Below, piece by piece: positions 24,381 through 41,196 of a stretch of DNA of 46,790 nucleotides (position 1 is the first letter of the stretch; each line of letters begins with the position of its first letter). Origin of the DNA: Amaricoccus solimangrovi (GTDB lineage: Bacteria; Pseudomonadota; Alphaproteobacteria; Rhodobacterales; Rhodobacteraceae). The stretch lies in the NCBI RefSeq assembly GCF_006385685.1, contig NZ_VFRP01000028.1:1-46790 (forward strand), read 5' to 3'. Both the position numbers and the translations under genes were made by a program. The notes under the pieces were generated by a model that saw only the letters and a list, made by a program, of their open reading frames with translations, ran no database searches and was not told the DNA's origin.

Positions 24381-24409
24381 GCGGGCGCGCCGGCCGGGGA
24401 GGGCCACCG

Positions 24410-26026: not shown

Positions 26027-26090
26027 CAACGTCTCGCCGTCGCCCTCGCCGAGCACCTTCCCGCCTTTCCCCAGCATTCCCGAGGATCCC

Positions 26091-26816
26091 ATGCAATTCA
26101 CCGGCAAGTCCGTCATCATCACCGGCGCGGGCAAGGGCATCGGTCGCGCCTGCGCGCGCCTGATGGCCGAGCGTGGCGCCGAGGTCGTCGCGCTCAGCCG
26201 CACGCAGTCGGATCTCGACAGCCTCCGCGCCGAGATCGGCGGCCGCGCGATCGCGGTCGACCTCGCCGATCCCGCCGCCACCCGCGCCGCGATGGCCGAG
26301 GCCGGCGCCTGCGACTATCTCGTCAACAGCGCCGGCATCAACGTGCTCGAGAGCGTGCTCGAGATGACCGAGGCGGGCTACGAGGCGGTGCTCGGCATCA
26401 ACCTGCGCGCCGCGCTTCTCACCTGCCAGGAATTCGCGCGCGCGCGGATCGCGGCCGGCGGCGGGGGGGCGATCGTGAACATCACCTCCATCGCCGGGCA
26501 TCGCGGCTTCCAGGATCATCTCTGCTACGCGGCCTCGAAGGCCGGGCTCGAGGGCGCGACCCGGGTTCTGGCGAAGGAGCTCGGTCCCCACGGGATCCGC
26601 GTCAACGCCGTCGCGCCGACGATCACGCTGACCGAACTCGCCGCCGAGGCCTGGAGCGACGAGGCGAAGAGCGCGCCGATGATGGTCCGCCACCCGCTCG
26701 GCCGCTTCGCCGAGGCCGAGGAGGTCGCGCGGAGCATCGCGCTGCTCCTGTCCGGCGACGGCGCCATGATCACCGGGGCGGTCCTTCCGATCGACGGCGG
26801 CTTCCTCGCCGTCTGA
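26091..26816 (+). CDS. SDR similar to L-xylulose reductase (DCXR type)
   Basis: This is a 241-residue SDR with NAD(P) motif TGAGKGIG, ALSRTQSDLDSL after strand 2, catalytic Ser in ITSIAG and YAASK. ALSRTQxDLDSL, GIRVNAVxPT, WSD..K, PLGRFAEAEEV and LPIDGGF closely follow mammalian and bacterial L-xylulose reductase as I recall it. That enzyme interconverts xylitol and L-xylulose with NADP(H), but bacterial relatives include other sugar and sugar-acid dehydrogenases. It is 64 bp after the kinase and the last gene of the ribitol unit, which suggests a wider pentitol role. Placement in the pathway is inference. Confidence 0.75.
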   Translation: MQFTGKSVIITGAGKGIGRACARLMAERGAEVVALSRTQSDLDSLRAEIGGRAIAVDLADPAATRAAMAEAGACDYLVNSAGINVLESVLEMTEAGYEAVLGINLRAALLTCQEFARARIAAGGGGAIVNITSIAGHRGFQDHLCYAASKAGLEGATRVLAKELGPHGIRVNAVAPTITLTELAAEAWSDEAKSAPMMVRHPLGRFAEAEEVARSIALLLSGDGAMITGAVLPIDGGFLAV

Positions 26817-26917: not shown

Positions 26918-27640
26918 CTAGCCGGTGGCGTCGGGGATCCTGAGATGGTCGAGGATGATCCGGCGCATCGTCTTGATCGCGCGGGCGTAGTTGAATGTCG
27001 GAAACATCACGTTGCGAAAGAGCGCGCCGTCGAGAAAGGTCGAGATGAAGAGCGCCGCGTCGCGTGCGTCGACCGGGCGGAACTCGCCCCGCGCGACGCC
27101 GTCGCGGATCGCCGCGCCGAGGACGTCCGCCTCCTGATCGTAGAAGGCGCGGATCGCCTGATCGACCAGCGGCGCGCGGTTGTGGGTGCTCGCATAGTCG
27201 AGGCTCATCTTCGCGACCTTCTGGAACTGGACGAACTGGCGGATATGCAGATCGATCCAGGCCGAGATGACCGCCTCCGGCGTGCGCGCCTCGCGCGTCA
27301 CCGAGGCGAATTGCTCGAAGGCCTCCTCGACGACCCGGGCGATCGCCCGCATGAAAAGCTCTTCCTTGTTGTCGAAGTAGTAGTAGAGATGCGAGGGGTT
27401 CATCCCGGCGGCGAGCGCGATGTCCTTCACGGTGACGGTCGAATAGTTCTGCTCCGCGAAGAGGTCCAGAGCCACGCGGCACATGATGTCGGGCGGCGAT
27501 CCCGCCGCGATCCTGAGCCGGCCGTCGCTCTCGCGCGCGGCCCGCGCGGCTCCCCGGCGGCGGACGCGGCGCGCCGGTCCCTCACCACCCGCCCGACGCT
27601 CCGCCGGGCCCTGGTCCACCTCGTCAGTCTCGCGGTCCAC
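26918..27640 (-). CDS. TetR-family regulator, last gene of the minus-strand catabolic operon
   Basis: This is a 240-residue protein. The HTH region (about 52-98) reads ALDLFAEQNYSTVTVKDIAL then AGMNPSHLYYYFDNKEELF, a clear TetR DNA-binding domain; the rest is the helical ligand-binding and dimer domain. About 50 residues of charged, low-complexity sequence precede the HTH. The GTG at 27640 lies 12 bp after the SDR stop, so it is co-transcribed with the catabolic genes; a GTG 9 codons further in is an alternative. It probably represses its own operon through TTGA-type operators at 35218 and 35555 and releases on an intermediate of the pathway (inference). Confidence 0.85.
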   Translation of the reverse strand: MDRETDEVDQGPAERRAGGEGPARRVRRRGAARAARESDGRLRIAAGSPPDIMCRVALDLFAEQNYSTVTVKDIALAAGMNPSHLYYYFDNKEELFMRAIARVVEEAFEQFASVTREARTPEAVISAWIDLHIRQFVQFQKVAKMSLDYASTHNRAPLVDQAIRAFYDQEADVLGAAIRDGVARGEFRPVDARDAALFISTFLDGALFRNVMFPTFNYARAIKTMRRIILDHLRIPDATG

Positions 27641-27652
27641 GCGCCGGTACCC

Positions 27653-28432
27653 TCACCCCTTGATGTACCAGGTGGTCGTGCTTCCGCCGTCGACCACGAT
27701 CCGCTGACCCGTAACATAACGGGCGCCCGCGAGGTAGGCGACCGCTTCGGCCACCTCTTCCGGCGTGCCGGCCCGCGCGATCGGGATGCCGGTGACCTCG
27801 GCGGCGAGCGCGGGCTCGCGCGTCTCCCAGTCCGAGCCCGCCGACCGGATCGGGCCGGGGCAGACGCAGTTCACCCGGAGACCGAGCGGCGCCCATTCGA
27901 CCGCCATCTGCCGGGCCGCGGCGACGACCGCCGCCTTGGCCGCCCCGTAGGCGCCGGCGCCCGGGTAGCAACGCAGGGCGGAGGCGCCGGCGATGCCGAT
28001 GATCGCGCCCCCCTCGCCCGGGGCCGGCGCCTGTCCCATCGCGCGGGCGGCCGCGGTGGCGAAGTAGAAGAAGCCGCGGGCATGAAGATCGAAGAGCGCG
28101 TCCCAGTCGGCGGCCGGGAGGTCGAGGAGCCGGCCCGGGCGCGATCCGCCGGCGTTGTTGACGGCGATGTCGAGGCGCCCGGCGCGGTCGAGCGTCCCGG
28201 CCACGGCGGCGTCGACCGAGGCGCGGTCGCCGAGATCCATGGCGATCGCGCTCACCCGCGCGCCCTCGCGCGAGAGCTCCGCCGCCGCGGCGCGCGCGCC
28301 CTCCATGTCATGAAGGCCGGTCAGCACGACGCGCGCGCCGCCCCGTGCCAGCCGCCGCGCGATCGCGCGGCCGATGCCGCGCGCGCCGCCGGACACAAGC
28401 GCCACCTGTCCGTCGAAGGGTGCTTCGGTCAT
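27653..28432 (-). CDS. Short-chain dehydrogenase of the catabolic operon
   Basis: This is a 259-residue classical SDR: SGGARGIG cofactor loop (about 15-22), MDLGD, NNAGG, and catalytic Ser and YGAAK. The C-terminus has VNCVCPGPIRSAG and VTGQRIVVDGGSTTTW. Its ATG at 28432 overlaps the stop of the flavoprotein gene (ATGA), showing translational coupling. Alcohol or ketone substrate unknown; it probably oxidises or reduces a ring or side-chain carbonyl produced by the neighbouring oxygenases. Confidence 0.88.
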   Translation of the reverse strand: MTEAPFDGQVALVSGGARGIGRAIARRLARGGARVVLTGLHDMEGARAAAAELSREGARVSAIAMDLGDRASVDAAVAGTLDRAGRLDIAVNNAGGSRPGRLLDLPAADWDALFDLHARGFFYFATAAARAMGQAPAPGEGGAIIGIAGASALRCYPGAGAYGAAKAAVVAAARQMAVEWAPLGLRVNCVCPGPIRSAGSDWETREPALAAEVTGIPIARAGTPEEVAEAVAYLAGARYVTGQRIVVDGGSTTTWYIKG

Positions 28433-30036
28433 GCCTCGTCTCCCAGGATGCGCAGGGCGGCGATATAGCCCCAGGTCATGTTCGGCCCGAGCGTGGTTCC
28501 CGATCCGACCGCCCGCGTGCCGAACGGATTGGCCATCGCGACGCCCGCGCAGTAGAGGCCGGGTATCGGGGCGCCCGCCCGGTCGAGCACCCGGGCATGC
28601 GCGTCGATTCTCGGCCCGCCCTTCGTCGAGAGCAGGCAGAGGTTGAAGGGCAGCGCGACGAGCGGCGGCGCGATGGGCCGCAGGCGCTCCGGCCGGCGCC
28701 CGCCGGGGGCGAGAGGGTCGAGATGGCGGCCGAAATCGCGATCCTCGCCCGCCGCGGCGTCCGCGTTGAAGCGGAGCAGCGTTTCCGCGAGCGCGGCCGG
28801 CGGAACGTCGATGGCCGCGGCGAGACCGGCCGGAGAGCCGGCCTCCCGCGCCCAGCCCGGCGCGCGGGCGAGGAAGCGTCGCAGGAGCGGTGCGGTCCGG
28901 AGCGTGGCGCGATCGGTGACCATCCAGGCGGGCAGATGGCGCGAGGCGCCGGTCGCCGGGTCGCGCTCGGCGAGGACTTCGCCGAGATTGAAGAGGTATT
29001 CGTTGACGAAGCGCCGCCCGCCGCGGTCGACGAGGATCGCCCCCGGTTCGCGATGGTGGAACGTGCCGACCGGAAGCGGCGCGCCGTCGAGACGCGCCGG
29101 CAGCGCCGGGGCGATGTTCGCCTGATCCATCCGCGCCAGCCGCGCGCCGACCGCCTCCGCCATCCGGGCGGCGTCGCCGGTATTGCCCGGAGCGGAGGCG
29201 ACGAGATCGACGGGCCCCGCGAAATGCCGCGCGCGCCGGGCCGTGTCGCGCTCGAACCCGCCCGAGGCGAGCACGACGCCGCGCCGCGCCCGGAGCTTCA
29301 GGGGTCCCCGCGCCGTGGCGCAGCTCACGCCGACGACGCGCCCGTCGCCACCGCGGCACAGCTCCACGACGCGGAGTCCGGTGGCCACGCGCCCGCCCGC
29401 GGCGCCGAGCCCGCGGGCGAGGCCCGCGACGAGCGCGGTGCCCTGCGCGCGGCGGCCAAGGAGAAGGCGCCCGGCGAGCCGGGGCGCCAGGCTGAACGCG
29501 GCGCGCCCCGGCCGATGCCAGGGGTCGTGCCGTCGCATTTCCTGATAGGTCAGCAGATGCGCCACATGGGGCGGCTGAAGCCGGAGGCCAGCCCGGCGGA
29601 TCGGCCGGGGCGAGACCATCCGCCCCGTCGCGAGCGCGCCCGGCGCCTCCGGATACGGGTCCGCGTCGTCGGAGAGGGCGAAGCGGAGCGGCGTCGCCTG
29701 CTCGACGAAGGAGAGGCAGCGCGGCGCCTCGCGGGCGAAGGCTTCCCAGAGCGGGCCTTCCTCGGCCTCCCACCCCGCCGGGCTGACCGCGCGGATGTAG
29801 CGCAGCGCCGTCTCCGCGTCGTCCGCGATCCCGGCGGCGCGGGCGAGATGGTTGCCGGGGATCCAGATCCCGCCGCCCGACATCGCGGTCGTGCCGCCGA
29901 TCCGGTCCATGCGCTCGGCGACGAGCACCGACAGCCCGCCCGCCGCGCAGGCGAGAGCCGCGGTCAACCCCGCGCCGCCGGAACCCACGACGATCACGTC
30001 GTATTCCGCCGAAAAGCCCGCGCGGCCCGCGGGCAT
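28429..30036 (-). CDS. FAD-dependent oxidoreductase, 3-ketosteroid dehydrogenase / fumarate reductase type
   Basis: This is a 535-residue flavoprotein. The N-terminal FAD fold is VIVVGSGGAGLTAALACAAG with the ribose-binding Glu in VAER, followed by GGTTAMSGGGIWIPGN, which is characteristic of the KstD-like branch. The C-terminal FAD-contact block is GLYCAGVAMANPFGTRAVGSGTT. Members introduce or reduce C=C bonds next to a carbonyl. The substrate is unknown and I would not call it a steroid enzyme, since no steroid genes are present. It is 1 nt downstream of the aldo/keto reductase gene and overlaps the SDR gene, in a tight operon. Confidence 0.85.
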   Translation of the reverse strand: MPAGRAGFSAEYDVIVVGSGGAGLTAALACAAGGLSVLVAERMDRIGGTTAMSGGGIWIPGNHLARAAGIADDAETALRYIRAVSPAGWEAEEGPLWEAFAREAPRCLSFVEQATPLRFALSDDADPYPEAPGALATGRMVSPRPIRRAGLRLQPPHVAHLLTYQEMRRHDPWHRPGRAAFSLAPRLAGRLLLGRRAQGTALVAGLARGLGAAGGRVATGLRVVELCRGGDGRVVGVSCATARGPLKLRARRGVVLASGGFERDTARRARHFAGPVDLVASAPGNTGDAARMAEAVGARLARMDQANIAPALPARLDGAPLPVGTFHHREPGAILVDRGGRRFVNEYLFNLGEVLAERDPATGASRHLPAWMVTDRATLRTAPLLRRFLARAPGWAREAGSPAGLAAAIDVPPAALAETLLRFNADAAAGEDRDFGRHLDPLAPGGRRPERLRPIAPPLVALPFNLCLLSTKGGPRIDAHARVLDRAGAPIPGLYCAGVAMANPFGTRAVGSGTTLGPNMTWGYIAALRILGDEA

Positions 30037-30037
30037 C

Positions 30038-31018
30038 TCACGCGAAGCCGATCACGGCGCGCGGCCGGTAGGGCGCCTCGAGCGCGGCGATCTCCTCCAG
30101 GGAAAGCTCGAGGGTCAGGGCGGCCGCGGCGTCGGCGAGCTGCTCGGGCCGGGTCGCCCCGATCACCGGCGAGACGACGGGCTCCCTGCCGAGCAGCCAG
30201 GCGAGGGCGACCTGGGCGGGCTTCGCGCCGCGCGCGGCGGCGATTTCCACCACCTTGCCGACGATCTCCCGGTCGGCCGCGACCTCCTCGGCGTAGAGCG
30301 CGGGCGTGTAGCCGTCCGTCGCGGATCGCTCCGAACCCTCGCCCCAGGGGCGGGCGAGGCGGCCGCGCGCGAGCGGGCTCCACGGGATGACCCCCACGCC
30401 CGCGGCGCGGCAGAAGGGCAGCATTTCGCGCTCCTCCTCCCGGTAGAGCAGGTTGAGGTGGTTCTGCATCACGGTGAAGCGGGTCCAGCCATTGGCTTTC
30501 TGCGTCTCGATCGCGGTGACGAACTGCCAGGCGAACATAGAGGAGGCGCCGAGATAGCGCGCCTTGCCGGCCTTCACCACGTCGTGCAGCGCCTCCAGCG
30601 TCTCCTCGAGCGGGGTCGCATAGTCCCAGCGGTGGATCATGTAGACGTCGACGTGATCGGTGCCGAGCCGCTTCAGGCTCGCGTCGATCTCCGACAGGAT
30701 CGCCTTCCGCGACAGGCCCGCGCCGTTCGGGCCGGGCCGCGTCCGGTTGTAGACCTTGGTCAGGATCACCACCTCGTCGCGCGGCACGGCGCCGAGCAGG
30801 AGCCGGCCGAGCGTCTCCTCGCTGCCGCCGTCGGAATAGGCGTTGGCGGTGTCGAAGAAGTTGATCCCGAGGTCGAGCGCCTTCGCGAAGAACGGCCGGC
30901 TTCCCTCCGCGTCGAAGAGCCAGCCGTGCCGGGGCGTCGGCCCGGTGGCGTAGCTCATGCAGCCGAGGCAGAGGCGCGAGACTTCGAGGCCGGTGCGGCC
31001 GAGCCTGGCGTAGTCCAT
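30038..31018 (-). CDS. Aldo/keto reductase
   Basis: This is a 326-residue NADP-type AKR barrel. The catalytic tetrad is visible as Asp and Tyr in FFDTANAYSDGGSEETLG, Lys in VILTKVY and His in YMIHRWD. VMQNHLNLLYREEEREMLPFC and IPWSPLARGRLA are typical of the yeast-Aad/YajO-like subgroup. It starts at ATG 31018, overlapping the Rieske gene's stop by 4 nt. In the operon it probably reduces an aldehyde or ketone made by the oxygenases, or works in the oxidative direction; the substrate is unknown. Confidence 0.88.
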   Translation of the reverse strand: MDYARLGRTGLEVSRLCLGCMSYATGPTPRHGWLFDAEGSRPFFAKALDLGINFFDTANAYSDGGSEETLGRLLLGAVPRDEVVILTKVYNRTRPGPNGAGLSRKAILSEIDASLKRLGTDHVDVYMIHRWDYATPLEETLEALHDVVKAGKARYLGASSMFAWQFVTAIETQKANGWTRFTVMQNHLNLLYREEEREMLPFCRAAGVGVIPWSPLARGRLARPWGEGSERSATDGYTPALYAEEVAADREIVGKVVEIAAARGAKPAQVALAWLLGREPVVSPVIGATRPEQLADAAAALTLELSLEEIAALEAPYRPRAVIGFA

Positions 31019-32202
31019 CAGACGCTCTCCCCGATGCCGTCGCGCACCCAGTCCGCGAGCTGCCAGACCGGCATCTCCAGATGGCTGAGCCGCCCCGGAC
31101 CCGCGAGCCGCGACTTCGCGCCGATCTGCTGCAGCGTGTTCACCTCGACGTCCTCCCGGGCGATCACCGCGCCCTTTTCCTTCGCCTGCGCCATCAGATC
31201 GGCGAATTCCGGGTTCTCGAGCGCCGAGCGGTGCACGAGGTGATGCCGGATCCACCAGGTCTCGCCCGCCGATTTCGGCAGGATCGTGGTCCAGCGCACC
31301 GAGTTGGCCGAGGTGCCCATCAGATGGTTCGGAAAAACGTGGTAGAGGTTGCCGGTCCGGATCTGCTCCTCGGTCCAGTCCGCGAAGACCGGCAGGCCGG
31401 GGGCGAGCGCGGCTTCGGTCGGCAGGTCGGCCCGGAGCGGGTGGCGCAGGCCGATCCAGCCCTGCTCCGGATCCTCCTTCACGAGCCCCCAGCTCTCGCC
31501 ACCCGGATGGTGCGGCTGCAGCGTCTTCGCGTGCGCGCCGATGTGGTGGTAGCATTCCATGAAGGTCTCGACCGCGATCTTCCAGTTGAACGGGCAGGGA
31601 AATTCGGTCGAATAGCCGACGACGAGCTCGTCCATCGGGATATTGGCGAATTCCCGCGCGAGCCCGTCCATCCGGGGGCCGAGCGGCTCGGCGTCGCCCG
31701 AGAGGTTCACGTAGATCGAGCCGAGCACGATCTCCGAGCGGATCTCGGGCAGACGGCACTTCTTCGGATCGAACCCCAGCGCCTGATCCATGAAGGGCGC
31801 GGCCTTGAGTTGGCCGGTCAGGTCGTAGCCCCAGCGGTGGAACGGGCAGGAGAACATCTTCGCATTGCCCGCGCCCGAGACCACCGGCGCCCAGCGGTGC
31901 AGGCAGACGCGCGACATCACGCGGATCCGGTCGGGGCCGCGCACCACCACCATCGGCTCGCCGAGCAGGTCGAGGGTGAAATAGTCGCCCACCTCCGGGA
32001 TCTGCGCGACATGGCCCACCACCATCCAGCCGGGGCGGAAGATGCGCTCGCGTTCGAGCGCGAAGAAGGCCTCCGTCGTGTAGGCGGCGGGGGGCAGGGT
32101 CTCGGCATCCGCCAGCGTCTGGCCCCGGCCGCCGTGCACCGCCGCGAGGATGCGCTCGGGCGCCCATTTCTCCAGGCTCTCGATCCGGGCGGGTTCGCTC
32201 AT
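31018..32202 (-). CDS. Rieske non-heme iron oxygenase, alpha subunit
   Basis: This is a 394-residue ring-hydroxylating-type oxygenase. The Rieske 2Fe-2S ligands are Cys100-x-His102 and Cys119-x-x-His122. The mononuclear iron site is in NWKIAVETFMECYHHIGAH, with His219 and His224 as ligands. Catalysis would be hydroxylation or N/O-demethylation using O2. Short alpha subunits like this, without a beta subunit, are usual for the demethylase and choline/carnitine-type branches as well as for oxygenases of aromatic substrates. No ferredoxin or reductase gene is in the operon, so electrons must come from elsewhere. The ATG at 32202 is preceded by AAGGAGA. Confidence 0.9.
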   Translation of the reverse strand: MSEPARIESLEKWAPERILAAVHGGRGQTLADAETLPPAAYTTEAFFALERERIFRPGWMVVGHVAQIPEVGDYFTLDLLGEPMVVVRGPDRIRVMSRVCLHRWAPVVSGAGNAKMFSCPFHRWGYDLTGQLKAAPFMDQALGFDPKKCRLPEIRSEIVLGSIYVNLSGDAEPLGPRMDGLAREFANIPMDELVVGYSTEFPCPFNWKIAVETFMECYHHIGAHAKTLQPHHPGGESWGLVKEDPEQGWIGLRHPLRADLPTEAALAPGLPVFADWTEEQIRTGNLYHVFPNHLMGTSANSVRWTTILPKSAGETWWIRHHLVHRSALENPEFADLMAQAKEKGAVIAREDVEVNTLQQIGAKSRLAGPGRLSHLEMPVWQLADWVRDGIGESV

Positions 32203-32213
32203 CGTGGTCTCCT

Positions 32214-33272
32214 TCAGGCGGTGGCGTCGGCCGGGGTGGCCGCGGTTTCGCGGCGGAGCACCGGCAGCACCTCCGCCCCGAAGCGTTCGAGCGCGCGCGC
32301 GGCCATCGCGAGCGGCATGTCGCCGAACTGGAAGAACATGTTGTAGTGCGTCGGGTTCATCGCCGCGCGCTCGGCGAGGATGCGCTCGGTCACCTGCGCG
32401 GCGGAGCCGATGATGACATTGTCGCGGAAGGTCTCGAGCGGCGGCTCGTCGGGCAGCGGCGGCGCGTCGATCATCGGCCCGGCATGGCCGATCTCCTTCG
32501 CGCGGAGCCCGGTCGCCATCCGGCCGACGAAGCGCGCGCAATCGGCGGCGATCAGCGCCTCGGCGGGGTCGTCGGTGACATGCACGTACTGCTGGACGCC
32601 GAGCCCGGTCGCGGGGAAGCCGGCGGCCGCCCAGTCGGCGCGGGTCTTTCGCCCCATCGCGATCAGCGCCTCCGACCCGCGCCATCCGGCGGTGATGAAC
32701 GGCGTGGCGCCGAGCGGCCCGAGGCGGGCGATGATCCGGGGATCGCCGCCGGTCACATAGAGCGGCGGCAGGGGCGTCTGGACCGGGCGGAGCAGCATCG
32801 GCGCCTCGGGCAGGCCGAGCGCGCGGGCGGAACCCGTCACCGCGCCGGTGGTCAGCGCCTCCTCCAGAACATCCCAGTACTTCAGGAAGATGTCGCCCCG
32901 CGTCGTGACATCGACGCCGTAGCGGTCGAACTCGAACGGCTGGTAGCCGGTGCCGACGCCGAGCACCAGCCGCCCGCCCGAGAGCTGGTCGACCAGCGCG
33001 ATCTCCTGCGCGACCCGCATCGGCTGGTAGAGCGGCAGCACGATCACCGCCGTGCCGAGCCGGATCCGCCGCGTCAGCCCGGCCATGTGCGCGGCCATCA
33101 TCAGCGGCGAGACCGAGACGGAATAGTTGGTGAAATGGTGCTCGGCGAACCAGGCGGTGTCGAGGCCGATCTCCTCGGCGAGCCCGACCATCAGCTTGGC
33201 ATCCGCCACCACGCCGGGCACGCCGCGCGGGTGCTGGCGGTAGGACATCAGGTTGAACAGCCCGAATTCCAT
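32214..33272 (-). CDS. Luciferase-like flavin-dependent monooxygenase
   Basis: This is a 352-residue bacterial-luciferase-family TIM barrel (F420/FMN type). Marks are MEFGLFNLMSYRQHP, DTAWFAEHHFTNYSVSVSP, RIRLGTAVIVLPLYQPMRVAQE and LSGGRLVLGVGTGYQPFEFDRYG, then PPLYVTGGDP and a C-terminal VIIGSAAQVTERI gate. Most such proteins in Proteobacteria use reduced FMN from a separate reductase, which is not in this operon. Known relatives cleave C-S or C-N bonds or hydroxylate carbon; the substrate here is unknown. It lies 11 bp upstream of the Rieske gene and 14 bp downstream of the permease. Confidence 0.88.
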   Translation of the reverse strand: MEFGLFNLMSYRQHPRGVPGVVADAKLMVGLAEEIGLDTAWFAEHHFTNYSVSVSPLMMAAHMAGLTRRIRLGTAVIVLPLYQPMRVAQEIALVDQLSGGRLVLGVGTGYQPFEFDRYGVDVTTRGDIFLKYWDVLEEALTTGAVTGSARALGLPEAPMLLRPVQTPLPPLYVTGGDPRIIARLGPLGATPFITAGWRGSEALIAMGRKTRADWAAAGFPATGLGVQQYVHVTDDPAEALIAADCARFVGRMATGLRAKEIGHAGPMIDAPPLPDEPPLETFRDNVIIGSAAQVTERILAERAAMNPTHYNMFFQFGDMPLAMAARALERFGAEVLPVLRRETAATPADATA

Positions 33273-33286
33273 GGCGTCGTCTCCGG

Positions 33287-34177
33287 TCAGGCGGGGTTGG
33301 TGGTCGTGGCGCGGGCCGTGTGGCCGCGGTTGTAGTAGGCTTCGATCCGCGCCTGTATCAGCGACAGCGCCGTGGTCGCGACGAGGTACCAGACGCAGGC
33401 GACGATCAGCATCGGGATGGTCTGGAAGGTGCGCGAATAGATCGTCTGCACCGAATAGAGCAGGTCCCAGAGCGCGACGATCGAGACGATCGACGTGGTC
33501 TTGAGCATCCCGATCGTCTGGTTGCCGGTCGGCGGCACGATGAAGCGCATCGCCTGCGGCAGCACGATCAGGAACAGACCCTGCCGCCGCGAGAGGCCGA
33601 GCGACTTCGCCGCGTCGTCCTGGCCGGGCGGCACGCTCTTCAGCCCCGCGCGCACGATCTCGGCCATGTAGGCGCCCTCGTTGAGGCCGAGCCCGAGGAT
33701 CGCCGCCGTGTAGGGGGTGATCAGGTCGTTGAACGAGCCGGTGAGGAAGGTCACGTCGGTGAAGGGGATGCCGATCCGGTATTTCGGATAGAGCGCGGCG
33801 AGATTGTACCAGAAGATGAGCTGCACCAGCACCGGCGTCCCGCGGAAGAACCAGGTGTAGGCGGCGGCGAAGGCGCGGGCCGGCGGGCTGCCGTGCGTCG
33901 TCATCAGCGCGAGCAGGATGCCGATCGCGACCCCGATCACCATCGTGACGGCGGTGAGCCAGAGCGTCGTGAGGAAGCCCCCGAGCACGGTGGACGAAAA
34001 GAGGTACTGCCCCACCACCGGCCACTGGAAGCGCGGGTTGGTGGCGACGCTCCAGGCGAGCCCGATGCCGATGGTGGCCATCAGGACGGCGGCGACGACG
34101 GCGCTCCAGCGCACCTCCTCCCAGCGGAAGAGCGGTGCGCGGGGCGGGCGGTCGTGCTCGGTTTCGCTTTTCATCAT
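33287..34177 (-). CDS. Amino-acid-type ABC transporter permease
   Basis: This is a 296-residue HisM/GlnP-family permease with about five to six TM helices. TWFFRGTPVLVQLIFWYNLA and the cytoplasmic EAA loop GLKSVPPGQDDAAKSLGLSR..LPQA are diagnostic. A cytoplasmic N-terminal part of about 25 residues precedes TM1. Two adjacent ATGs (34177, 34174) follow a GGAG site. The binding protein is encoded directly upstream, but there is no ATPase gene in the operon or elsewhere nearby, so it must share one. Confidence 0.9.
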   Translation of the reverse strand: MMKSETEHDRPPRAPLFRWEEVRWSAVVAAVLMATIGIGLAWSVATNPRFQWPVVGQYLFSSTVLGGFLTTLWLTAVTMVIGVAIGILLALMTTHGSPPARAFAAAYTWFFRGTPVLVQLIFWYNLAALYPKYRIGIPFTDVTFLTGSFNDLITPYTAAILGLGLNEGAYMAEIVRAGLKSVPPGQDDAAKSLGLSRRQGLFLIVLPQAMRFIVPPTGNQTIGMLKTTSIVSIVALWDLLYSVQTIYSRTFQTIPMLIVACVWYLVATTALSLIQARIEAYYNRGHTARATTTNPA

Positions 34178-34239
34178 GGCTCCGGCTCTCTCCGACGGGG
34201 GTGCGAGGGGCCCGCGCCGGACGCGGCCCCCCCGGGGGA

Positions 34240-35166
34240 TCAGGGCAGCGGCTTCGTCGTCGTCATGTTCACGCCGAAATCCGAGAGCGCGGCGTGCTTG
34301 AGGTTCCATTTCGCGAAGATCGCATCATAGGCCCCGTCCGCCTTGAGTTTGGTGAGCGCCGCGACGAGCGCTGCCTTCAGCGGTTCGTTCTCCTTGGCGA
34401 CGACGATGCCGAGGTAGTGCTTCTCCTCCAGCGGATCGGGCATCGAGCCGATGTCCACGGGGTTGTTGGCCCGGATCTCGTCCACCGCCGAGCCCTCGGA
34501 GAGAGCGAAGTCGATCCGGCCGGAGAAGAGCGCGAGCAGCACGGCGGATTGCTGCGGGAATTCGCCGATCTCGATCGGCTCCAGCCCCTGCTCCACGCAC
34601 CAGTCGTTGAACCCGGAGAGCCGGGTCAGGAAGTCGGTGCCCGACTGGCCGGCGGTGGTGAGCCCGCAGAAGGATTTCGGATCCTCGGCCACGATCGTGT
34701 CGTTCGAGGCGAGATAGTAGAACTGGTTGCCGTAGGTCAGCGAATGGTTGACGAAATCGACCACCTCCTCGCGCTCCGGCCGGTCGGTGATGCATTCCAT
34801 CGCCGCGTCGTAGCGCCCGCCCTGCACGCCGGGGATGAGCCCCGCGAAGTCGATCGAGGACACCTCGAGCGTCACGCCCATCACCTGCGCCAGCGCGTCC
34901 CAGATGTCGACCTCGTAGCCGACCATCTTCTTTTCCGAGTCGAACCACTGGCAGGGCGGATAATTCGCATCCGTCGCCATCTTCAGCACGCCGGTTTCCC
35001 GGATCGCCTCGGGCAGAAGCGCGTGGATCGCGGGATCCTCCTTCTGCTCGGGGATCGGCGTCTTCGGATAGGCGTCCTGCGCCAGCGCCGGGGCGAGGCC
35101 GGCGAGACTCGCCGCGAGCGCGGCCACGAGCGTCGGGAGGCGGAAGGGACGAACGGGTATCGGCAT
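34240..35166 (-). CDS. Amino-acid-type ABC transporter, family 3 periplasmic binding protein
   Basis: This is a 308-residue precursor: signal peptide LVAALAASLAGLAPALAQ, then a family 3 fold with LKMATDANYPPCQWFDSEKKMVGYEVDIWDAL. The ligand loop region includes YDAAMECITDRPEREEVVDFV; FCGLTTAGQSGTD and ALSEGSAVDEI follow. Family 3 ligands are amino acids or related small amines and acids, which fits a nitrogen-containing pathway substrate. The ATG at 35166 has GGAGAGA upstream. It is the first gene of the minus-strand unit and is preceded at 35218-35233 by a TetR-type operator. Confidence 0.9.
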   Translation of the reverse strand: MPIPVRPFRLPTLVAALAASLAGLAPALAQDAYPKTPIPEQKEDPAIHALLPEAIRETGVLKMATDANYPPCQWFDSEKKMVGYEVDIWDALAQVMGVTLEVSSIDFAGLIPGVQGGRYDAAMECITDRPEREEVVDFVNHSLTYGNQFYYLASNDTIVAEDPKSFCGLTTAGQSGTDFLTRLSGFNDWCVEQGLEPIEIGEFPQQSAVLLALFSGRIDFALSEGSAVDEIRANNPVDIGSMPDPLEEKHYLGIVVAKENEPLKAALVAALTKLKADGAYDAIFAKWNLKHAALSDFGVNMTTTKPLP

Positions 35167-35217
35167 GGTCTCTCCATGGAAGCGGCGGGCGCGGCGGCCG
35201 GCTGGGAGGGCAGGCAT

Positions 35218-35233
35218 TTGATCGTTCGTTCAA
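35218..35233. promoter_or_regulatory. TetR-type operator, site 1
   Basis: TTGATCGTTCGTTCAA fits the two-fold pattern TTGA-n-YG-tt-YG-n-TCAA, ending 52 bp upstream of the binding-protein start at 35166. The same pattern recurs at 35555-35570 before the divergent unit. The TetR regulator at 26918-27640 is the natural candidate ligand. Confidence 0.5.
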
Positions 35234-35554
35234 ACCTGACGGTCCGGGGGCCGGCGTGGCTACCGCGATCCGCGGGGGCCGGGCGAAAATCGGGATCCGG
35301 GGGGCTACTTGCCGCATTAATTCGCCATGACACAGGCTAATGATCATTTATTGCCCAGGATGTTATCGATGCGGCAAGAATCAGCGATTCGTCGTCTGTT
35401 TCGAGGCAGATCGAGGCGAATCCAGTCATCCACCCCTCCGTTCACGCCGGATCCAAGCGCTTGGAATCGGCCTCGCCAAACTCGGGATCGTCAGCCTTTC
35501 CAGTATCTTCGCAGCCCGGAAGATAGGGAAAACGGTCGCTTCCGAAAAATCTGT

Positions 35555-35570
35555 TTGAATGTTTGATCAA
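35555..35570. promoter_or_regulatory. TetR-type operator, site 2
   Basis: TTGAATGTTTGATCAA shares the outer TTGA/TCAA arms, the central TT and the YG steps with site 1. It ends 46 bp upstream of the ATG at 35617, almost the same distance as site 1 from its own gene. It overlaps the perfect palindrome GTTTGATCAAAC at 35561-35572. Confidence 0.5.
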
Positions 35571-35616
35571 ACCACGCTCAGCTTGGGCGACCAGGAGAAC
35601 ACCCCAGGAGAACGGA

Positions 35617-36090
35617 ATGACGGTGGAAGAGGCGATCGCGCGCTTCGAGGCGGAGCGCGAGAAGATATGGATGAGTTCGCCCGAGGACGTGACGGCGCTC
35701 GGCCAGGGGATCGTGCCGCGGCGCACCGGCGCGCGCGGTCAGTACCTCTCCACCATCATCTTCGCCGAGGGCGAGGCGCGCACCTTCGCCGACGAGATGC
35801 TCTGGGGCATCATCCGCGTCTGCGAGGACACGACGGCCGATCTCGCCACGCTCCAGGCGCTGATCGACCAGATCATCGGCTACAAGGCGTCCTTCTTCGA
35901 CTTCGTCTCGCTGCCCTCGGCGGCGGAGATGACGCGGCTCTACGTGGAGGCGGCGAAGCTCTGCGAGACCACGGACGAGCTCGCCCGGCTCTCCCACGCC
36001 GCGCTCGGCTATGCGAACCGGCTGCACATGTGGGTCGACTACATCCTGCCCTGGGGACTCGGCGACGCCTTCCGGCGGAAGGAGGCGTGA
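35617..36090 (+). CDS. Unknown helical protein, first gene of the GlnT-like unit
   Basis: This is a 157-residue soluble protein, predicted mostly alpha-helical, with no signal peptide or TM helix. Blocks that look conserved in character are MSSPEDVTALGQGI, GQYLSTIIFAEGEARTF and ALGYANRLHMWVDYILPWG. I do not recognise a family. The ATG at 35617 has CAGGAG 6 nt upstream and starts the coding bias. It precedes the DUF3830 gene by 2 nt, so the two products probably act together, perhaps as partners of one complex or enzyme (inference). Confidence 0.7.
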   Translation: MTVEEAIARFEAEREKIWMSSPEDVTALGQGIVPRRTGARGQYLSTIIFAEGEARTFADEMLWGIIRVCEDTTADLATLQALIDQIIGYKASFFDFVSLPSAAEMTRLYVEAAKLCETTDELARLSHAALGYANRLHMWVDYILPWGLGDAFRRKEA

Positions 36091-36092
36091 GC

Positions 36093-36518
36093 ATGCGGCT
36101 CGTTCTCGACATCGCCGGCAAGGACATCTGCGAGATCGACGTCTGGGAGGACAAGGTCCCGAACCTCTGCGCCCAGTTCCGCGAGAAGCTGCCGATGACC
36201 TCGATGCTCCAGCACGGCAAGCTGCTGGGGGATCTCATCTTCTTCACGATGCCGATCGTGGCGCCCTGGGAAAACCGCTACCTGACCGAGGAAGTGGGCG
36301 CCGAGCGGGTCGCGAAATACGGGAGCCCGGCGGGCGCCGTCTGCTTCTACAGCCCGCGCCAGCAGTTCTGCGTCGTCTACGGCGACGAGGCCTCCGACGA
36401 GCCGCTGCCGATCTCCTATATCGGCGAGGTCGTCTCGGGGTCGCTGGAACTGAAGATCGCGGGACTGGAAACGTGGTTCGACCAGAGCCGCACGGTCACC
36501 CTCAGGATCGCGGAGTAA
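36093..36518 (+). CDS. DUF3830 cyclophilin-like family protein
   Basis: This is a 141-residue protein fitting DUF3830: [52 protein letters not shown], then PGEVCFY-like [19 protein letters not shown]. The fold is a cyclophilin-like beta barrel, and members often sit beside hydantoinase, amidohydrolase or ABC transporter genes for nitrogen compounds. No catalytic role is established to my knowledge. Its ATG lies 2 nt after the previous stop, with AAGGAGG inside the upstream gene, and it is 4 nt before the ligase gene. Confidence 0.82.
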
Positions 36519-36522
36519 GCGC

Positions 36523-37890
36523 ATGGCCTTCGACATGACCGACGAGGCGATCGCCGCGCTCCAGGCGGAGCTGGCGGCGAAGGGCGTACGCTACTGCGTC
36601 GGCGCCTACGTGGACATTCATGGCGTCCAGAAGGGCAAGGTGGTTCCCCTGCCCCATCTCGCACATATGGCGCATGGCTCGGAACGCTACACCGGCTACG
36701 CGCTCGACGGGCTCGGCCAGGCGCCGAACGACGACGAGATCACCTCGATCCCCGACTTCGGCCACGTGATCCAGCTGCCCTGGGAGCCGAGGATCGCCTG
36801 GATGCCGGCGGACAACCATTTTCAGGGCGCCCCCTATCCGCTCTCGACACGCGTCGCGCTGAAGGCGCAGCTCGAGAAGGCGGCGGAGCTCGGCTTCGGC
36901 TTCGACCTCGGGATCGAGGCGGAGATCTTCCTGCTGCGCCGGACCGCCGCCGGGCTCGAAGTGCCGAGCCCGAACGACACGCTGGTGAAGCCCTGCTACG
37001 ACCTGAAGGGCTTCCTCGACAATTTCGGCTGGCTCGACAGGATGGCCTCGACCATCGACGCGCTCGGCTGGGATCTCTATTCCTTCGACCACGAGGATGC
37101 GAACGGCCAGTTCGAATTCGACTTCCGCTTCGCCGACGCGCTCACCACCTGCGACCGGCTGACCTTCTTCCGGATGATGGCGAAGCACTACGCCGAGGAG
37201 GAGGGGCTGATCGCGACGATGATGCCGAAGCCCTTCGCGGACCGCACCGGCAACGGCGCGCATTTCAACATGTCGCTCCGCGATCTCGCGAGCGGCGCCA
37301 ACGCCTTCGCCTGCGACCCGGCGGAGGATCCGCGTGGGCTCGGCCTCACCGCGACCGGCTATCACTTCATCGGCGGCATCCTCGCGCATGGCCGCGCGCT
37401 CTGCGCGGCGCTGGCGCCGACGGTCAACAGCTACAAGCGGCTGGTGCGGCGGGGCGCCATGGCGGGATTCAGCTGGGCGCCGGTGTTCAACTCGTATGGT
37501 TCCAACAACCGCACCAATTCGGTGCGCGTGCCGGCGGGCGGCGGGCGCTGCGAGAGCCGGAACGCGGACGGCTCGGTGAATCCCTATCTCGCCGCGACGC
37601 TCGTGCTCGCGGCCGGGCTCGACGGGGTGAAGCGCGCGCTCGATCCGGGCAAGCCGAACGATGACAACCTCTACGAGCTTACCGAGGCCGAGCGCGCGAC
37701 GCGCGGCATCGAGTTCCTGCCGCAGACGCTGCTCGAGGCGGTCGAGGCCTTCGAGGCGGATCCGCTGGTGGAGGAGACGCTCGGCACCGCGCTTCGCGAC
37801 GAATTCGCGCTCTACAAGCGCCAGGAGTGGAACGAGTACCACCTGACGGTCGGCGCCTGGGAAACCGAGCGCTACAGCCAGCTGTTCTGA
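36523..37890 (+). CDS. glnT: Type III glutamine synthetase-like ligase (GlnT family)
   Basis: This 455-residue protein is the length of the rhizobial GlnT group. Catalytic landmarks are GIEAEIFLL (metal Glu pair), [31 protein letters not shown] and [17 protein letters not shown]. These enzymes make a gamma-glutamyl phosphate from glutamate and ATP and transfer it to ammonia or a primary amine. In this context an amine-accepting gamma-glutamyl ligase that activates the pathway substrate is as likely as glutamine synthesis. It should act as a dodecamer in the cytosol. No adenylylation motif was sought in detail. It is tightly coupled to its neighbours (4 nt before, 1 nt overlap after). Confidence 0.87.
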
Positions 37891-38891
37891 TGGACCTGCC
37901 CGAGCTCCGGCGCTTCTCCCTCGGCGACCTGCCGCTCTCGGGCGGCGGCCGCCTCCGGGACGCGGTCCTCACCTATCGCCTCTGGGGGGAGAGGGACGCG
38001 CCCGCGGTGCTCCTGCCCTCCTATTACACCGGAACGAGCGCCTCCCAGACCGGGATCATCGGGCCCGGGCGGGCGCTCGATCCGGAGCGGCTTCTCATCA
38101 TCGCGACCGACCTCTTCGGCAATGGCGTCGCGACTTCGCCCAGCCATCGGAACGGCAGGGAGCGGGAGGCCTTCCCCGGCGTGTCGGTCGAGGACAACGT
38201 CCGGGCCCAGGCCAGCCTTCTCGACGCGCTCGGCATCGGCCGGCTCGCGCTCGTCCAGGGGTGGTCGCTCGCCGCGATCCAGGCCTGGCACTGGGCGGCG
38301 ATGTTTCCGGACCGGGTGGAGGCCATCCTCCCCGTCTGCGGCGCGACCGGCTGCTGGCCGCTGAACCGCGTGTTCCTGTCCGGGCTGCGGGCGGTTCTGG
38401 AGGCCGACCCGGATTTCGCCGGCGCCGCGCCCGGACCGGGGAACGCCCCCCGGGCGCTCCGCGCCTTCGGCAGGGTCTACGCCGGCTGGGCCTATTCGCC
38501 CGCGTTCTGGCGCGACGCGCGCTGGCGCGAGCTCGGCTTCGACGGCGCCGGGGCGGTGCTCGACTGGTGGGAGCGGGATCATCTGCTCTGGGACGCGCAT
38601 GATCTCGCGGTGGCGCTTGCGACCTGGGAAGGCGCGGATCTCGCCCGCGCGACCGGGGCGCCGGATCTCGCCGCGGCCCTCGCCAGGGTCACCGCCCGGG
38701 TGATCGCGATGCCCGGCGAGACGGACCGCTACTTCACGCCGGAGGAAAACGCCCTCGAGATCGCCGCCGTCGCGCGCGGAGAGCTGCGGCCCCTGCGCTC
38801 CGCCTTCGGTCATTGCGCCGGAGCGCCGGGCCGCGTCGCCGCCGACAGCGCGGAAGTCGAGAAGGCGACACGCGCGCTGCTTCCGGCCTGA
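37890..38891 (+). CDS. Alpha/beta hydrolase, MetX/homoserine acetyltransferase-like
   Basis: This is a 333-residue alpha/beta hydrolase. It has the MetX-type start (LRDAVLTYRLWGERD, LLPSYYTGT) and IATDLFGNGVATSPS. The nucleophile elbow is GWSLAAIQAW; GWS replaces the usual GGS/GSS and the next residue is Leu instead of Met or Gly. Candidate Asp is in GETDRYF and His in FGHCAG. Relatives are often annotated as homoserine O-acetyltransferase but act as hydrolases on other substrates, and no methionine genes are near. Its ATG overlaps the ligase stop (TGATG). It might hydrolyse an ester or amide intermediate. Confidence 0.82.
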   Translation: MDLPELRRFSLGDLPLSGGGRLRDAVLTYRLWGERDAPAVLLPSYYTGTSASQTGIIGPGRALDPERLLIIATDLFGNGVATSPSHRNGREREAFPGVSVEDNVRAQASLLDALGIGRLALVQGWSLAAIQAWHWAAMFPDRVEAILPVCGATGCWPLNRVFLSGLRAVLEADPDFAGAAPGPGNAPRALRAFGRVYAGWAYSPAFWRDARWRELGFDGAGAVLDWWERDHLLWDAHDLAVALATWEGADLARATGAPDLAAALARVTARVIAMPGETDRYFTPEENALEIAAVARGELRPLRSAFGHCAGAPGRVAADSAEVEKATRALLPA

Positions 38892-38935: not shown

Positions 38936-39547
38936 TCAGATGAAATAGATCCGGTCGGGCAGTTCGTTCGCGCTCTCGCTCGTGCTCGGGAACTCCCGGA
39001 CCAGCACCGCGCCGCAGGATTCGATCGCCGCGACGAAGCCGTCGGCGACCCGGCCTTCGCGCAGATGCGCGACGAGCGCGTCGACGGCGTCCTGCCAATG
39101 GGACTGGGGAACACGCGCCGCGACGCCCTCGTCGGCGATGACGCGGGCGTAATGTTCGGCGAGGGAGACGAAAATCAGGATGCCCGACCGGTCGCGCTTG
39201 CGCGAGACCGAGCGGGTGTAGAACTGCTCGGTCGCGACGCGGAACGCCATCGCGCGCCGCGCCCGCCGGGGGATCAGCCAGGCGCGCGCCCGGGGCGGCG
39301 ACAGCGCGAGCGCCAGCGCCACGAACACCGCGAGCTGGAGCGTGAGGATGCTCGTGACCGGCAGCGCGGTGAAGGCGATGAGCAGCCAGGGCGCCGCCAG
39401 CGCCGCGAGCGCGGCGATCAGGATGGGCAGCGCGCCGCTGTCGGCCGACTGCTCGGCGAGCACGCAGACGATTTCGCCGGTGCTCCGCGCCTCGACCGCG
39501 CGGATGGCGGCGACGATCCTGTCGTGATCCTCGGGGGACATTTCCAT
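38936..39547 (-). CDS. TPM-domain membrane protein, second of two
   Basis: This is a 203-residue protein starting MEMSPEDHDRIVAAIRAVEARSTGEIVCVLAE, the first strand and helix of a TPM domain. Two TM helices follow (about 40-60 and 65-85), then FYTRSVSRKRDRSGILIFVSLAEHYARVIADEG and SHWQDAVDALVAHLREG. Its ATG overlaps the upstream gene's stop (ATGA). Proteins like this regularly accompany LemA and a larger YgcG-type TPM protein in the order seen here. Function is uncertain; roles in envelope or membrane protein maintenance are suggested for the group. Confidence 0.85.
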   Translation of the reverse strand: MEMSPEDHDRIVAAIRAVEARSTGEIVCVLAEQSADSGALPILIAALAALAAPWLLIAFTALPVTSILTLQLAVFVALALALSPPRARAWLIPRRARRAMAFRVATEQFYTRSVSRKRDRSGILIFVSLAEHYARVIADEGVAARVPQSHWQDAVDALVAHLREGRVADGFVAAIESCGAVLVREFPSTSESANELPDRIYFI

Positions 39548-40353
39548 CACCAGCTCCCCGACGCGCCGCCGCCGCCCGACGAGCCGCCGCCGCCGGAGAA
39601 TCCGCCACCGCCGCCGCTCCATCCGCCGCCGCCCGAACGGCCGCCCCGGTACTGGCCCGACCGTCCGCCCCCTTGGCTGATCAGCATGCCGAAGAGCATC
39701 GCGTTCACGAAGCGGCGGAACCCGCGCGACAGGATGAAGAGGGCGACGAAGCCGAAGAAGAGGAGGGCGGCGGGCCAGCCGGCCGCGTCGCCCTCCGGCG
39801 CGCGGTCGAGGCGGAGCTCCGGCCGCGCCTCCCATTCGGAGGCGTCCGTGGTCAGCACGGTGATGATGTCGTCGACGCCGCGCGCGACGCCGCCGTCGAA
39901 GTCGCCCGCCTTGAACCGGGGCGTGATGGCATTGGTGATGATGACCTTCGAAAGCGCGTCGGTCAGCGTTCCCTCCAGGCCGTAGCCGACCTCGATCCGC
40001 ACGCGGCGCTCGTTCGGCGCGACGAGCAGGAGCGCGCCGTTGTTCCTGTCCGCCTCCCCGAGCTTCCAGGCGCGGAAGAGCCCGTTGGCGTAGGGCTCGA
40101 TCTCCTGGCCCTGGAGCGAGGGCACGGTGGCGACGACGAGCTGGATGCCCGAGCGCTGCTCCAGCGCGGCGAGCTTCGGCTCGAGCGCGGCCTCCGCCTC
40201 CGGCGAGAGGATCCCGGCCTCGTCGACGACCCGGCCGGTCAGCGGCGGGAAGCTCTGCGCCGCGGCCAGCGTCGCGAGAAAGGCGAGGGCGAGCGCGGCG
40301 AGGGCGAGGAGCGGGCGCCCCGGGCTCAGGCGCGCGAGATCGCGGGTGCTCAT
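39547..40353 (-). CDS. YgcG-type TPM-domain protein with glycine-serine tail
   Basis: This 268-residue protein has an N-terminal signal peptide (LLALAALALAFLATLAAAQS) and the TPM domain at about 38-165: LTGRVVDEAGILSPEAEAALEPKLAALEQRSGIQLVV, RNNGALLLVAPNERRVRIEVGYGLEG and the TNAITPRFKAGDFDGGV segment. A TM helix at about 193-210 and a 45-residue Gly/Ser-rich tail (SGGGG repeats, ending GASGSW) follow. The tail is normal for the family. It is encoded 13 bp after the LemA gene and overlaps the next, forming a three-gene operon. Confidence 0.9.
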   Translation of the reverse strand: MSTRDLARLSPGRPLLALAALALAFLATLAAAQSFPPLTGRVVDEAGILSPEAEAALEPKLAALEQRSGIQLVVATVPSLQGQEIEPYANGLFRAWKLGEADRNNGALLLVAPNERRVRIEVGYGLEGTLTDALSKVIITNAITPRFKAGDFDGGVARGVDDIITVLTTDASEWEARPELRLDRAPEGDAAGWPAALLFFGFVALFILSRGFRRFVNAMLFGMLISQGGGRSGQYRGGRSGGGGWSGGGGGFSGGGGSSGGGGASGSW

Positions 40354-40366
40354 CTGGCCCCCCGCG

Positions 40367-40960
40367 TCAGAACTTCACGGTGGGCGGGGTCTGCGCGCCG
40401 TCGCTGGCGGTGAAGTCCGCCATCGGCTCGGCGCCCCGGATCTTCGCCCAGATCACGCCCGGGAAGGTCCTGATCTCGGTGTTGTAGGCGCGCACGGCCT
40501 CGATATAGTCGCGGCGCGCGACGGCGATGCGGTTCTCGGTGCCTTCGAGCTGCGACTGCAGGGCGAGGAAGTTCTGGTTCGACTTCAGGTCCGGATAGTT
40601 CTCGCTGACGGCGATCAGCCGGCCGAGCGCGCCGCTCAGCTGGCCCTGCGCCTCCTGGAACTGCCTGATCTTTTCCGGATCGGACAGGTCGCTCGCCGAT
40701 ACCGTGATCTGGGTCGCCTTCGCCCGCGCCTCGACCACCGAGGTCAGCACATCCTTTTCCTGGGCGGCGTAGCCCTGCACCGTCGCGACGAGGTTCGGGA
40801 TCAGGTCGGCGCGGCGCTGGTAGTTGTTCTGGACGTCCGACCAGCGCGCCCTGGCCTGCTCCTCGAGCGTCGGGATGGTGTTGTAGCCGCAGGCCGAGAG
40901 CAGAAGGCCAAGCAGGGAGACGAGAAAGAAGGCGCGAAGGCGCGCGACCTGGGCTGTCAT
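40367..40960 (-). CDS. lemA: LemA family lipoprotein
   Basis: This is a 197-residue LemA protein. A signal peptide ends in the lipobox LLSAC, so Cys is probably lipidated; then GYNTIPTLEEQARARWSDVQNNYQRRADLIPNLVATVQGYA, the LemA signature, followed by long helices with EKIRQFQEAQGQLSGALGRL and NFLALQSQLEGTENRI. The ATG at 40960 has GGAGG 7 nt upstream; an adjacent ATG at 40963 is possible. It is the first gene of the LemA-TPM-TPM operon. The protein should form a helical bundle at the inner membrane. Confidence 0.92.
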   Translation of the reverse strand: MTAQVARLRAFFLVSLLGLLLSACGYNTIPTLEEQARARWSDVQNNYQRRADLIPNLVATVQGYAAQEKDVLTSVVEARAKATQITVSASDLSDPEKIRQFQEAQGQLSGALGRLIAVSENYPDLKSNQNFLALQSQLEGTENRIAVARRDYIEAVRAYNTEIRTFPGVIWAKIRGAEPMADFTASDGAQTPPTVKF

Positions 40961-41137
40961 CATCCGTCCTCCGGCGCCGCGGACAGGGGGCGCTGTTTCG
41001 ATCCGGCGCTCAGCGTAGAGCAAACCCGCCGCCGCGGAAACTCTCGCGCGCCGTCGAGGTCGGTTCGCGTCACCTGGTCGACACGCCGGGGTTCATCGCG
41101 CGGCCCATCCCTCTCCCGGCGCGGAAATGGTTGAAGG

Positions 41138-41194: not shown

Positions 41195-41196
41195 AC

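Follow-up and report, generated by a model that had tools for sequence, protein, structure and literature searches.

A conserved two-unit island of Amaricoccus solimangrovi encodes a pair resembling a split Pictet-Spenglerase and may serve the breakdown of histidine-derived conjugates

The 46,790-nt window analyzed here, one contig of the 4.86-Mb genome of Amaricoccus solimangrovi, carries at positions 26918 to 38891 an island of twelve genes in two divergent units, the plus-strand unit headed by a gene pair that resembles a Pictet-Spenglerase divided in two. At a probability of roughly 0.55, we read the island as a catabolic cluster for a histidine-derived conjugate, which would be imported, opened by the pair in a retro-Pictet-Spengler reaction and relieved of its decorations in oxidative steps, with a TetR-family regulator controlling both units jointly. 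Loci and genomes are cited below by our own numbers (L and G).

The two genes of the pair look like the halves of a split enzyme of the McbB/KslB/cucumopine-synthase type, the first (35617..36090, plus strand) encoding the helical-bundle half and the second (36087..36518, plus strand, starting at GTG 36087 or ATG 36093) the cyclophilin-like half. An earlier sequence-only reading of this stretch had described the first product as unknown; its 157 residues match Pfam Cucumopine_C (PF18631) at E = 1.3e-45, with 155.5 bits against a cut-off of 27. In a sequence search of PDB chains the protein reached 3x27 at 4.2e-17, an entry that one PDB field calls cucumopine synthase and whose title gives McbB complexed with tryptophan. 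The AlphaFold model (predicted local distance difference test, pLDDT, 86.9) returned the same entry first in Foldseek (E = 2.1e-5, TMq 0.77); two McbB chains (2.1e-5 and 4.7e-5) were the only matches below 0.001, followed by 27 KslB chains at 1.7e-3 to 4.9e-2. Identity to McbB and KslB in these alignments is about 19-27%.

The second protein scores 25.7 against Pfam DUF3830, just below the cut-off of 26. The same reading had taken DUF3830 as a sign of nitrogen-heterocycle hydrolysis; here it appears instead as the other half of the predicted Pictet-Spenglerase. As a single sequence it gave nothing firm by phmmer, which missed McbB and KslB, and a profile built from 30 relatives, including four of the pRi type, matches the cyclophilin-like domains of KslB (5.4e-8) and McbB (3.3e-6). 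Because this profile also matches 2nnz (9.1e-8) and TM1367 (2e-5), two cyclophilin-like proteins that do not bear the Pictet-Spenglerase name, homology of the DUF3830 half is claimed at the domain level, and it is the neighboring gene that makes the case for an enzyme. The AlphaFold model of this subunit is poor (pLDDT 53), and its Foldseek list was not used as evidence.

Thirteen columns of the DUF3830 alignment are invariant over its 30 rows, among them Glu105 (30/30), which in the alignment falls opposite the presumed catalytic Glu97 of McbB. By eye, Gln93 falls opposite what is presumably McbB His87, so the pocket would not be identical to that of McbB. Profiles thus match both domains of McbB (marinacarboline) and KslB (kitasetaline), and for the helical half the predicted fold agrees. 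These two enzymes are each one fused protein, whereas the halves are separate genes, in another frame or with a stop between them, in all 30 aligned rows, pRi1724-type pairs included. Since the genes are split and activity is predicted by homology, we file the pair as a variant of the McbB-type enzyme. Two papers describe McbB as building beta-carbolines from tryptophan (PMC7024544, PMC12513458), and the latter says the same of KslB (PMC12513458).

The pair belongs to a larger conserved unit. All twelve open reading frames (ORFs) were located where the sequence-only reading had placed them, neighboring genes inside each unit overlapping or being separated by anything from a few bases to several tens. 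In transcription order, the minus unit encodes a substrate-binding protein (SBP), a permease, a luciferase-like (LLM) monooxygenase, a Rieske oxygenase, an aldo/keto reductase (AKR), a KstD-like protein, a short-chain dehydrogenase/reductase (SDR) and the TetR regulator, and the plus unit encodes the 157-aa protein, the DUF3830 protein, a type III glutamine synthetase (GS)-like ligase (GlnT) and a MetX-like hydrolase. A scan for the 157-aa protein over a collection that represents each species by a single genome gave 82 pattern matches, of which 20 loci were confirmed, and 14 of these 20 hold genes of both units together (the pair, GlnT and importer or oxygenase genes). Four of the 14 are from Rhodobacterales (L010-L013), the loci nearest to the island, and ten from Enterobacterales (L017, L020-L028). 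Gene orders vary. The Enterobacterales order is pair, MetX, TetR, GlnT, AKR, Rieske, LLM, permease, GlnQ-like ATPase and SDR; KstD and SBP adjoin SDR in the six Enterobacterales genomes whose KstD locus was retrieved. A GbcB-like reductase gene is found in L017, L021, L027, L028, L092, L093, L095 and L137, with none in the window. Several loci extend beyond the retrieved stretch; in L013, LLM and MetX are cut short, and Rieske is absent from the stretch and present elsewhere in the genome.

Genome searches added L092-L094, whose gene set is the same within the retrieved stretch, and L095 (G517, 9902-19200), a decayed copy of the island in which the 157-aa gene is interrupted and several other genes are broken or missing. 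Joint decay of this kind would fit genes that act in a single pathway. In a reciprocal test over 295 genomes from the Erwinia typographi family (Rouxiella and Acerihabitans included), the 157-aa protein occurs in 9 and a Rieske orthologue (42-46%, E <= 3.5e-97) in 7, all within the 9; none of the 286 genomes lacking the 157-aa protein has the orthologue. The chance of this overlap is 1e-12 by a hypergeometric calculation that treats the genomes as independent, which they are not, kinship being ignored. The two carriers lacking a Rieske orthologue are G021, with an importer ATPase and the pair at a contig edge, and the decayed G517, and 18 more genomes gave weak Rieske matches only (28-36%, E 1e-31 to 1e-35), which we take for other enzymes. 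Sodalis dw_96 (G030), outside this set, carries the oxygenase cluster in a retrieved stretch of 33.9 kb that shows no pair; its pair lies with its own importer on another contig (L029) and belongs to the hut-linked clade described below. The divergent units thus form a single conserved cluster, and the earlier proposal of one pathway is supported. Among 390 genomes from the window's order, only one carries the 157-aa protein. The family model was found once in 11 genomes of the window's genus, and PF18631 in 4 of 385 of its class (2 above cut-off). The island has probably spread by gene transfer, which fits so rare and patchy an occurrence.

Relatives lacking the oxygenases tie the pair to histidine utilization (hut). 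Seven loci carry the pair at 55-76% identity (helical subunit 57-75%) in stretches free of oxygenase genes (L014, L015, L016, L018, L019, L029, L097), the same importer type adjoining where visible. Hut genes lie within 10 kb in five of the seven (L015, L016, L018, L019, L097). In L019 the importer and the pair are followed by hutC, F, I, H, G and U; HutC of L016, L018 and L019 and HutF, HutI, HutH and HutG of L019 score above the NCBI curated cut-offs. L097 has a KstD-like gene (53%) between the hut genes and the importer. In the hut loci of Kaistia, Devosia and Consotaella, the pair is 65-76% identical to that of the window (helical half 72-75%) and has the same importer type; unlike in the window, hut is adjacent, and Rieske, LLM, AKR, GlnT and MetX are absent from the stretch. 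The hut genes of the window genome, hutU included, are on another contig (C49). As a separate observation, G014, G023, G024 and G028 have a second, more divergent hutU-like gene (685-706 bits versus 946-970 for the main one).

In a tree of both proteins, hut-linked Consotaella, on a long branch, is sister to the window's clade (support 94/93), and the two group in turn with the remaining hut loci of Hyphomicrobiales and with two importer-only loci of Enterobacterales (90/99); both values fall short of the tool's mark of 95/80. The oxygenase-linked Enterobacterales pairs stand apart from this clade. The pair thus seems to have kept its similarity through a change of gene context, which suggests one reaction type. 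The tree also bears on whether the pair may cleave the adduct of an amine other than histidine (tryptophan or some other aryl-ethylamine), in which case the orthologues' hut linkage would reflect a shift of substrate. McbB and KslB were solved with tryptophan, and the alignment, read by eye, of Gln93 with the residue we take for McbB His87 speaks for a pocket that differs; nonetheless, the helical subunit is 57-75% identical to hut-linked pairs, which are interleaved with oxygenase-linked ones in the tree, and we regard a non-histidine substrate as very improbable.

The same loci offer a hint as to the carbonyl half. A DAK-type dihydroxyacetone-kinase gene adjoins hutC in L015, L016 and L018 (three of the five hut-linked loci), and a phosphotransferase-system (PTS)-type DhaK, DhaL and DhaM set with an EI-like protein lies about 10 kb or less from the pair in L100 and L101, the scanned proteins having been taken from one or the other. 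Dihydroxyacetone-kinase genes therefore accompany five of the 11 loci without oxygenase genes (L098-L101, at 45% identity, being counted with the above seven), probably through two independent events. We considered whether such a kinase is an ordinary hut neighbor and set this aside: no hut or pair gene adjoins the closest four DAK relatives (72-81%), which come from Devosia's family, in stretches of 5.5 to 19.9 kb, the 5.5-kb one having little flank. The linkage hints at a triose as the carbonyl product, at least for the kinase-linked loci. Because the DAK gene adjoins hutC in three of five hut-linked loci and the DhaK/L/M set is near the pair in two more, we put forward, as a tentative and minority view, that the split pair naturally runs in reverse, releasing histidine and dihydroxyacetone or glyceraldehyde from histidine-triose adducts, and that the oxygenase island is an add-on for decorated versions of them.

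More distant split pairs occur in opine settings. On pRi1724 (L050 11579-12546) a split pair lies near an amino-acid importer, as the window pair does (SBP and permease), together with oxoprolinase genes and apart from a fused family gene; no oxygenase genes were found there. Sodalis praecaptivus pHS1 (L048 7510-8489) and G647 have a split pair with hutH, importer and oxoprolinase genes, and a Sinorhizobium medicae plasmid holds two pairs, one with and one without an oxoprolinase gene in the stretch. Cucumopine/mikimopine synthase and the pRi1724 split pair share the window's domain pair, the pRi-type pairs being only 23-26% identical to it, and a tblastn search of the window gave no match to oxoprolinase, a feature of the opine loci. 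By their homology and neighbors, the split pairs of pRi1724 and pHS1 are candidate catabolic enzymes for mikimopine-type opines. One report calls pAtAg67 a cucumopine-catabolic plasmid (PMC10745273), and published work on this plasmid may already cover a catabolic pair. Separately, L104, L105, L106 and L108 encode cucumopine-synthase-like proteins in open frames of 320-390 aa beside HutC-like regulators (34-41%, perhaps general GntR kin), with importer genes in L104-L106, oxoprolinase genes in L104 and hutH (68%) in L108; a catabolic context may also hold for such fused forms.

McbB and KslB are linked to alkaloid synthesis, whereas the window pair is linked to import and, in relatives, to histidine degradation. 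In a biosynthetic role, the pair would join an imported amino acid, histidine or tryptophan, to a carbonyl supplied by the oxidoreductases, and the other enzymes would tailor the resulting alkaloid or opine-like compound. In its favor, the characterized relatives are synthetic, and tailoring is often the work of oxygenases, ligases and SDRs. We nevertheless consider such a role unlikely, as the transporter genes are of the import type, the close orthologues adjoin hut and dihydroxyacetone-kinase genes, and the pRi1724 relatives stand beside oxoprolinase genes. We infer from the hut, importer and oxoprolinase contexts that the pair takes part in the breakdown of histidine conjugates.

Both units are probably under joint control. 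The spacer between them holds the palindrome TTGAWN6WTCAA exactly twice, as a candidate operator about 50 nt before the SBP start (35218..35233) and another 46 nt before the start of the plus unit (35555..35570); two copies occurred in none of 100 window shuffles. The same arrangement before both units is found in the four closest loci, L010-L013. In an effort to avoid a chosen motif, the palindrome, first spotted by eye, was re-tested over 3328 arm/gap combinations, of which only TTGA-N8-TCAA occurs twice in all five spacers, themselves 43-64% identical in pairwise alignments. The genome has five TTGAWN6WTCAA sites, two of them in the island spacer. Exact single copies are present in L015, L021, L028 and L093, none in the spacer before the pair, and the two-palindrome arrangement is not shared by the Enterobacterales loci. 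The TetR regulator may bind these sites. Upstream of the 157-aa gene in Enterobacterales, e.g. L017 9937-9962, an AT-rich palindrome around TTAATTA...TTAATTAA is another candidate operator, the TTAATTA repeat lying upstream of the pair in all eight Enterobacterales stretches searched for inverted repeats.

The remaining genes supply an importer and a set of oxidative and ligating enzymes. An NCBIfam and Pfam scan covered ten of the twelve proteins; the labels of the TetR regulator and the permease rest on the call of the sequence-only reading, our own reading of the sequence and orthologue position. The SBP (34240..35166, minus strand) is a family 3 protein of an amino-acid-type (PAAT) importer (PF00497, 2.1e-31) that matches many amino acid binders among solved structures, octopine- and nopaline-binding proteins ranking lower, and it is followed by an amino-acid-type ATP-binding cassette (ABC) permease (33287..34177, minus strand; 72% orthologue in L010). 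The earlier suggestion that a nitrogen compound enters by such a transporter thus agrees with what these families imply. Further along the minus strand are the LLM flavin monooxygenase (32214..33272; PF00296, 3.6e-51; best solved relative 8cbb), the Rieske oxygenase (31018..32202), the AKR (30038..31018; PF00248, 2e-70; nearest NCBIfam model PRK09912, below its cut-off), the KstD-like FAD dehydrogenase (28429..30036; FAD_binding_2, PF00890, 1.5e-61), the SDR (27653..28432; PF13561, 1.7e-58) and the TetR-family regulator (26918..27640; 69% orthologue in L010), whose start is uncertain because homology begins only near residue 25.

The Rieske protein (PF00355 and PF00848) is nearest to CntA/GbcA, with the carnitine monooxygenase 6y9c as best solved relative. 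It carries the motifs CLHR...CPFH and ETFMECYHHIGAH, and it shares with CntA/GbcA the Rieske and catalytic domains and a Glu at the bridging position (7/7 sequences viewed). It differs in scoring 113.7 bits against the curated GbcA model, whose cut-off is 670, and in that a GbcB-like reductase accompanies only some relatives. The KstD-like protein reaches 306 bits against the curated 3-oxosteroid (3-ketosteroid) dehydrogenase model, whose cut-off is 788. As both miss the curated cut-offs, neither protein should carry the name of that family. On the plus strand, the GlnT-like ligase (36523..37890) passes TIGR03105, a model of type III glutamate-ammonia ligases that leaves function open (1.1e-188; 627 bits, cut-off 470), and its closest solved relative is the glutamate-methylamine ligase 9qur (397 bits). 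The MetX-like alpha/beta hydrolase (37890..38891) has a GWSLA motif and scores 297 bits against PRK07581 (1.4e-88), under the cut-off of 332.

These relationships bear directly on the scheme of the sequence-only reading, in which an imported amine is gamma-glutamylated and/or oxidized by two oxygenases, the pair having a different, minor role. The closeness of GlnT to glutamate-methylamine ligase and of the Rieske protein to carnitine monooxygenase, an enzyme that frees an amine, would suit it. On the other hand, the pair is present in all eight genomes with a Rieske orthologue (seven in the family and Sodalis dw_96) and occurs without the ligase in 11 oxygenase-free stretches, and the ten scanned proteins, to which the search was limited, include no N-methylglutamate synthase (glutamate-synthase-like) gene as in the N-methylglutamate route of gamma-glutamylmethylamide synthetase. 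We therefore judge the scheme as a whole distinctly unlikely. Nothing found here supports gamma-glutamylation as the core or entry step, while a gamma-glutamyl amide step somewhere in the pathway is plausible from the affinities of GlnT.

Combined, these data lead us to propose the following catabolic route, in which the direction of the reaction and histidine as the amine half are both inferred. The importer would take up an amino-acid-like alkaloid or opine, and the split pair would open its tetrahydro-imidazopyridine ring in reverse, giving L-histidine and a carbonyl compound; the freed histidine would enter the hut pathway encoded elsewhere in the genome. Before or after ring cleavage, the Rieske, LLM, AKR, KstD-like and SDR enzymes may remove or break down decorations. 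An oxidative C-N cleavage could release an amine for GlnT to capture as a gamma-glutamyl amide, the MetX-like hydrolase could cut an ester or lactone, and SDR, KstD, AKR, LLM and MetX may act on a carbon skeleton. TetR would bind the palindrome before both units and control them together. Attempts to name the substrate by other means were set aside: the SBP matches many amino acid binders and points to no specific ligand, the structure matches of LLM, Rieske and MetX are too distant, and three plasmid regions with LLM or Rieske relatives were not decisive, one LLM relative (45%) lying in a Rhizobium cluster with a flavin reductase, an amino-acid importer, SDRs and RidA and the other two regions giving nothing usable.

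Several points weigh against this proposal, in addition to the matches of the DUF3830 profile to 2nnz and TM1367. The solved relatives McbB and KslB act synthetically, and on tryptophan, and we have seen no measured activity for any member of the split-pair subgroup. The roles given to the five oxidoreductases are guesswork. The gene set is not constant, MetX being absent from L010 and LLM from L012, and neither LLM nor MetX was found in L096 with L126, added by the genome searches. There is no hut link at L014 (a contig edge), L029 or the four 45%-identity loci L098-L101, and no hut gene was found by tblastn (E 1e-10) in the window or in 21 oxygenase-type stretches. Twenty of the 21 carrier genomes, this one included, have hutU, a count of little weight. 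Finally, no ATPase of an amino-acid importer was found close to the SBP and permease genes, either in the window or in L010-L013.

Further genes flank the island. By sequence reading, a sugar-type ABC ATPase and permease, an SDR, an FGGY kinase and another SDR at 21146-26816 on the plus strand appear to form a separate sugar cluster next door. The FGGY kinase (ORF 24119-26026) and the sugar ABC genes were considered as part of the island and taken as a coincidence, because the FGGY-type kinases that precede the pair in three loci of Enterobacterales share no more than 24-25% identity with that of the window. Past the island, 38936-41023 on the minus strand encodes proteins that we take to resemble the TPM-domain and LemA families, and 41148-41873 on the plus strand is an ORF of PIN/VapC-like look, perhaps part of a toxin-antitoxin system.

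In the open-access literature, we found no paper on this cluster, on DUF3830, PF18631, PF12903 or Cucumopine_C, or on a combination of at least three of the Rieske, LLM, gamma-glutamylmethylamide and histidine-utilization elements. The characterized enzymes of this fold that we found are alkaloid makers, and the cucumopine/mikimopine synthases are opine makers. If our reading is right, the island would represent a Pictet-Spengler step run in reverse and dedicated to catabolism. Because the pair appears as two genes, linked to an importer and, in relatives, to hut, it makes a testable case that bacteria degrade histidine Pictet-Spengler adducts by reversing ring closure. Gene pairs of DUF3830 and Cucumopine_C, in split systems that span Rhodobacterales, Hyphomicrobiales and Enterobacterales, would thereby gain a role, and with it a class of nutrients that has possibly been overlooked.

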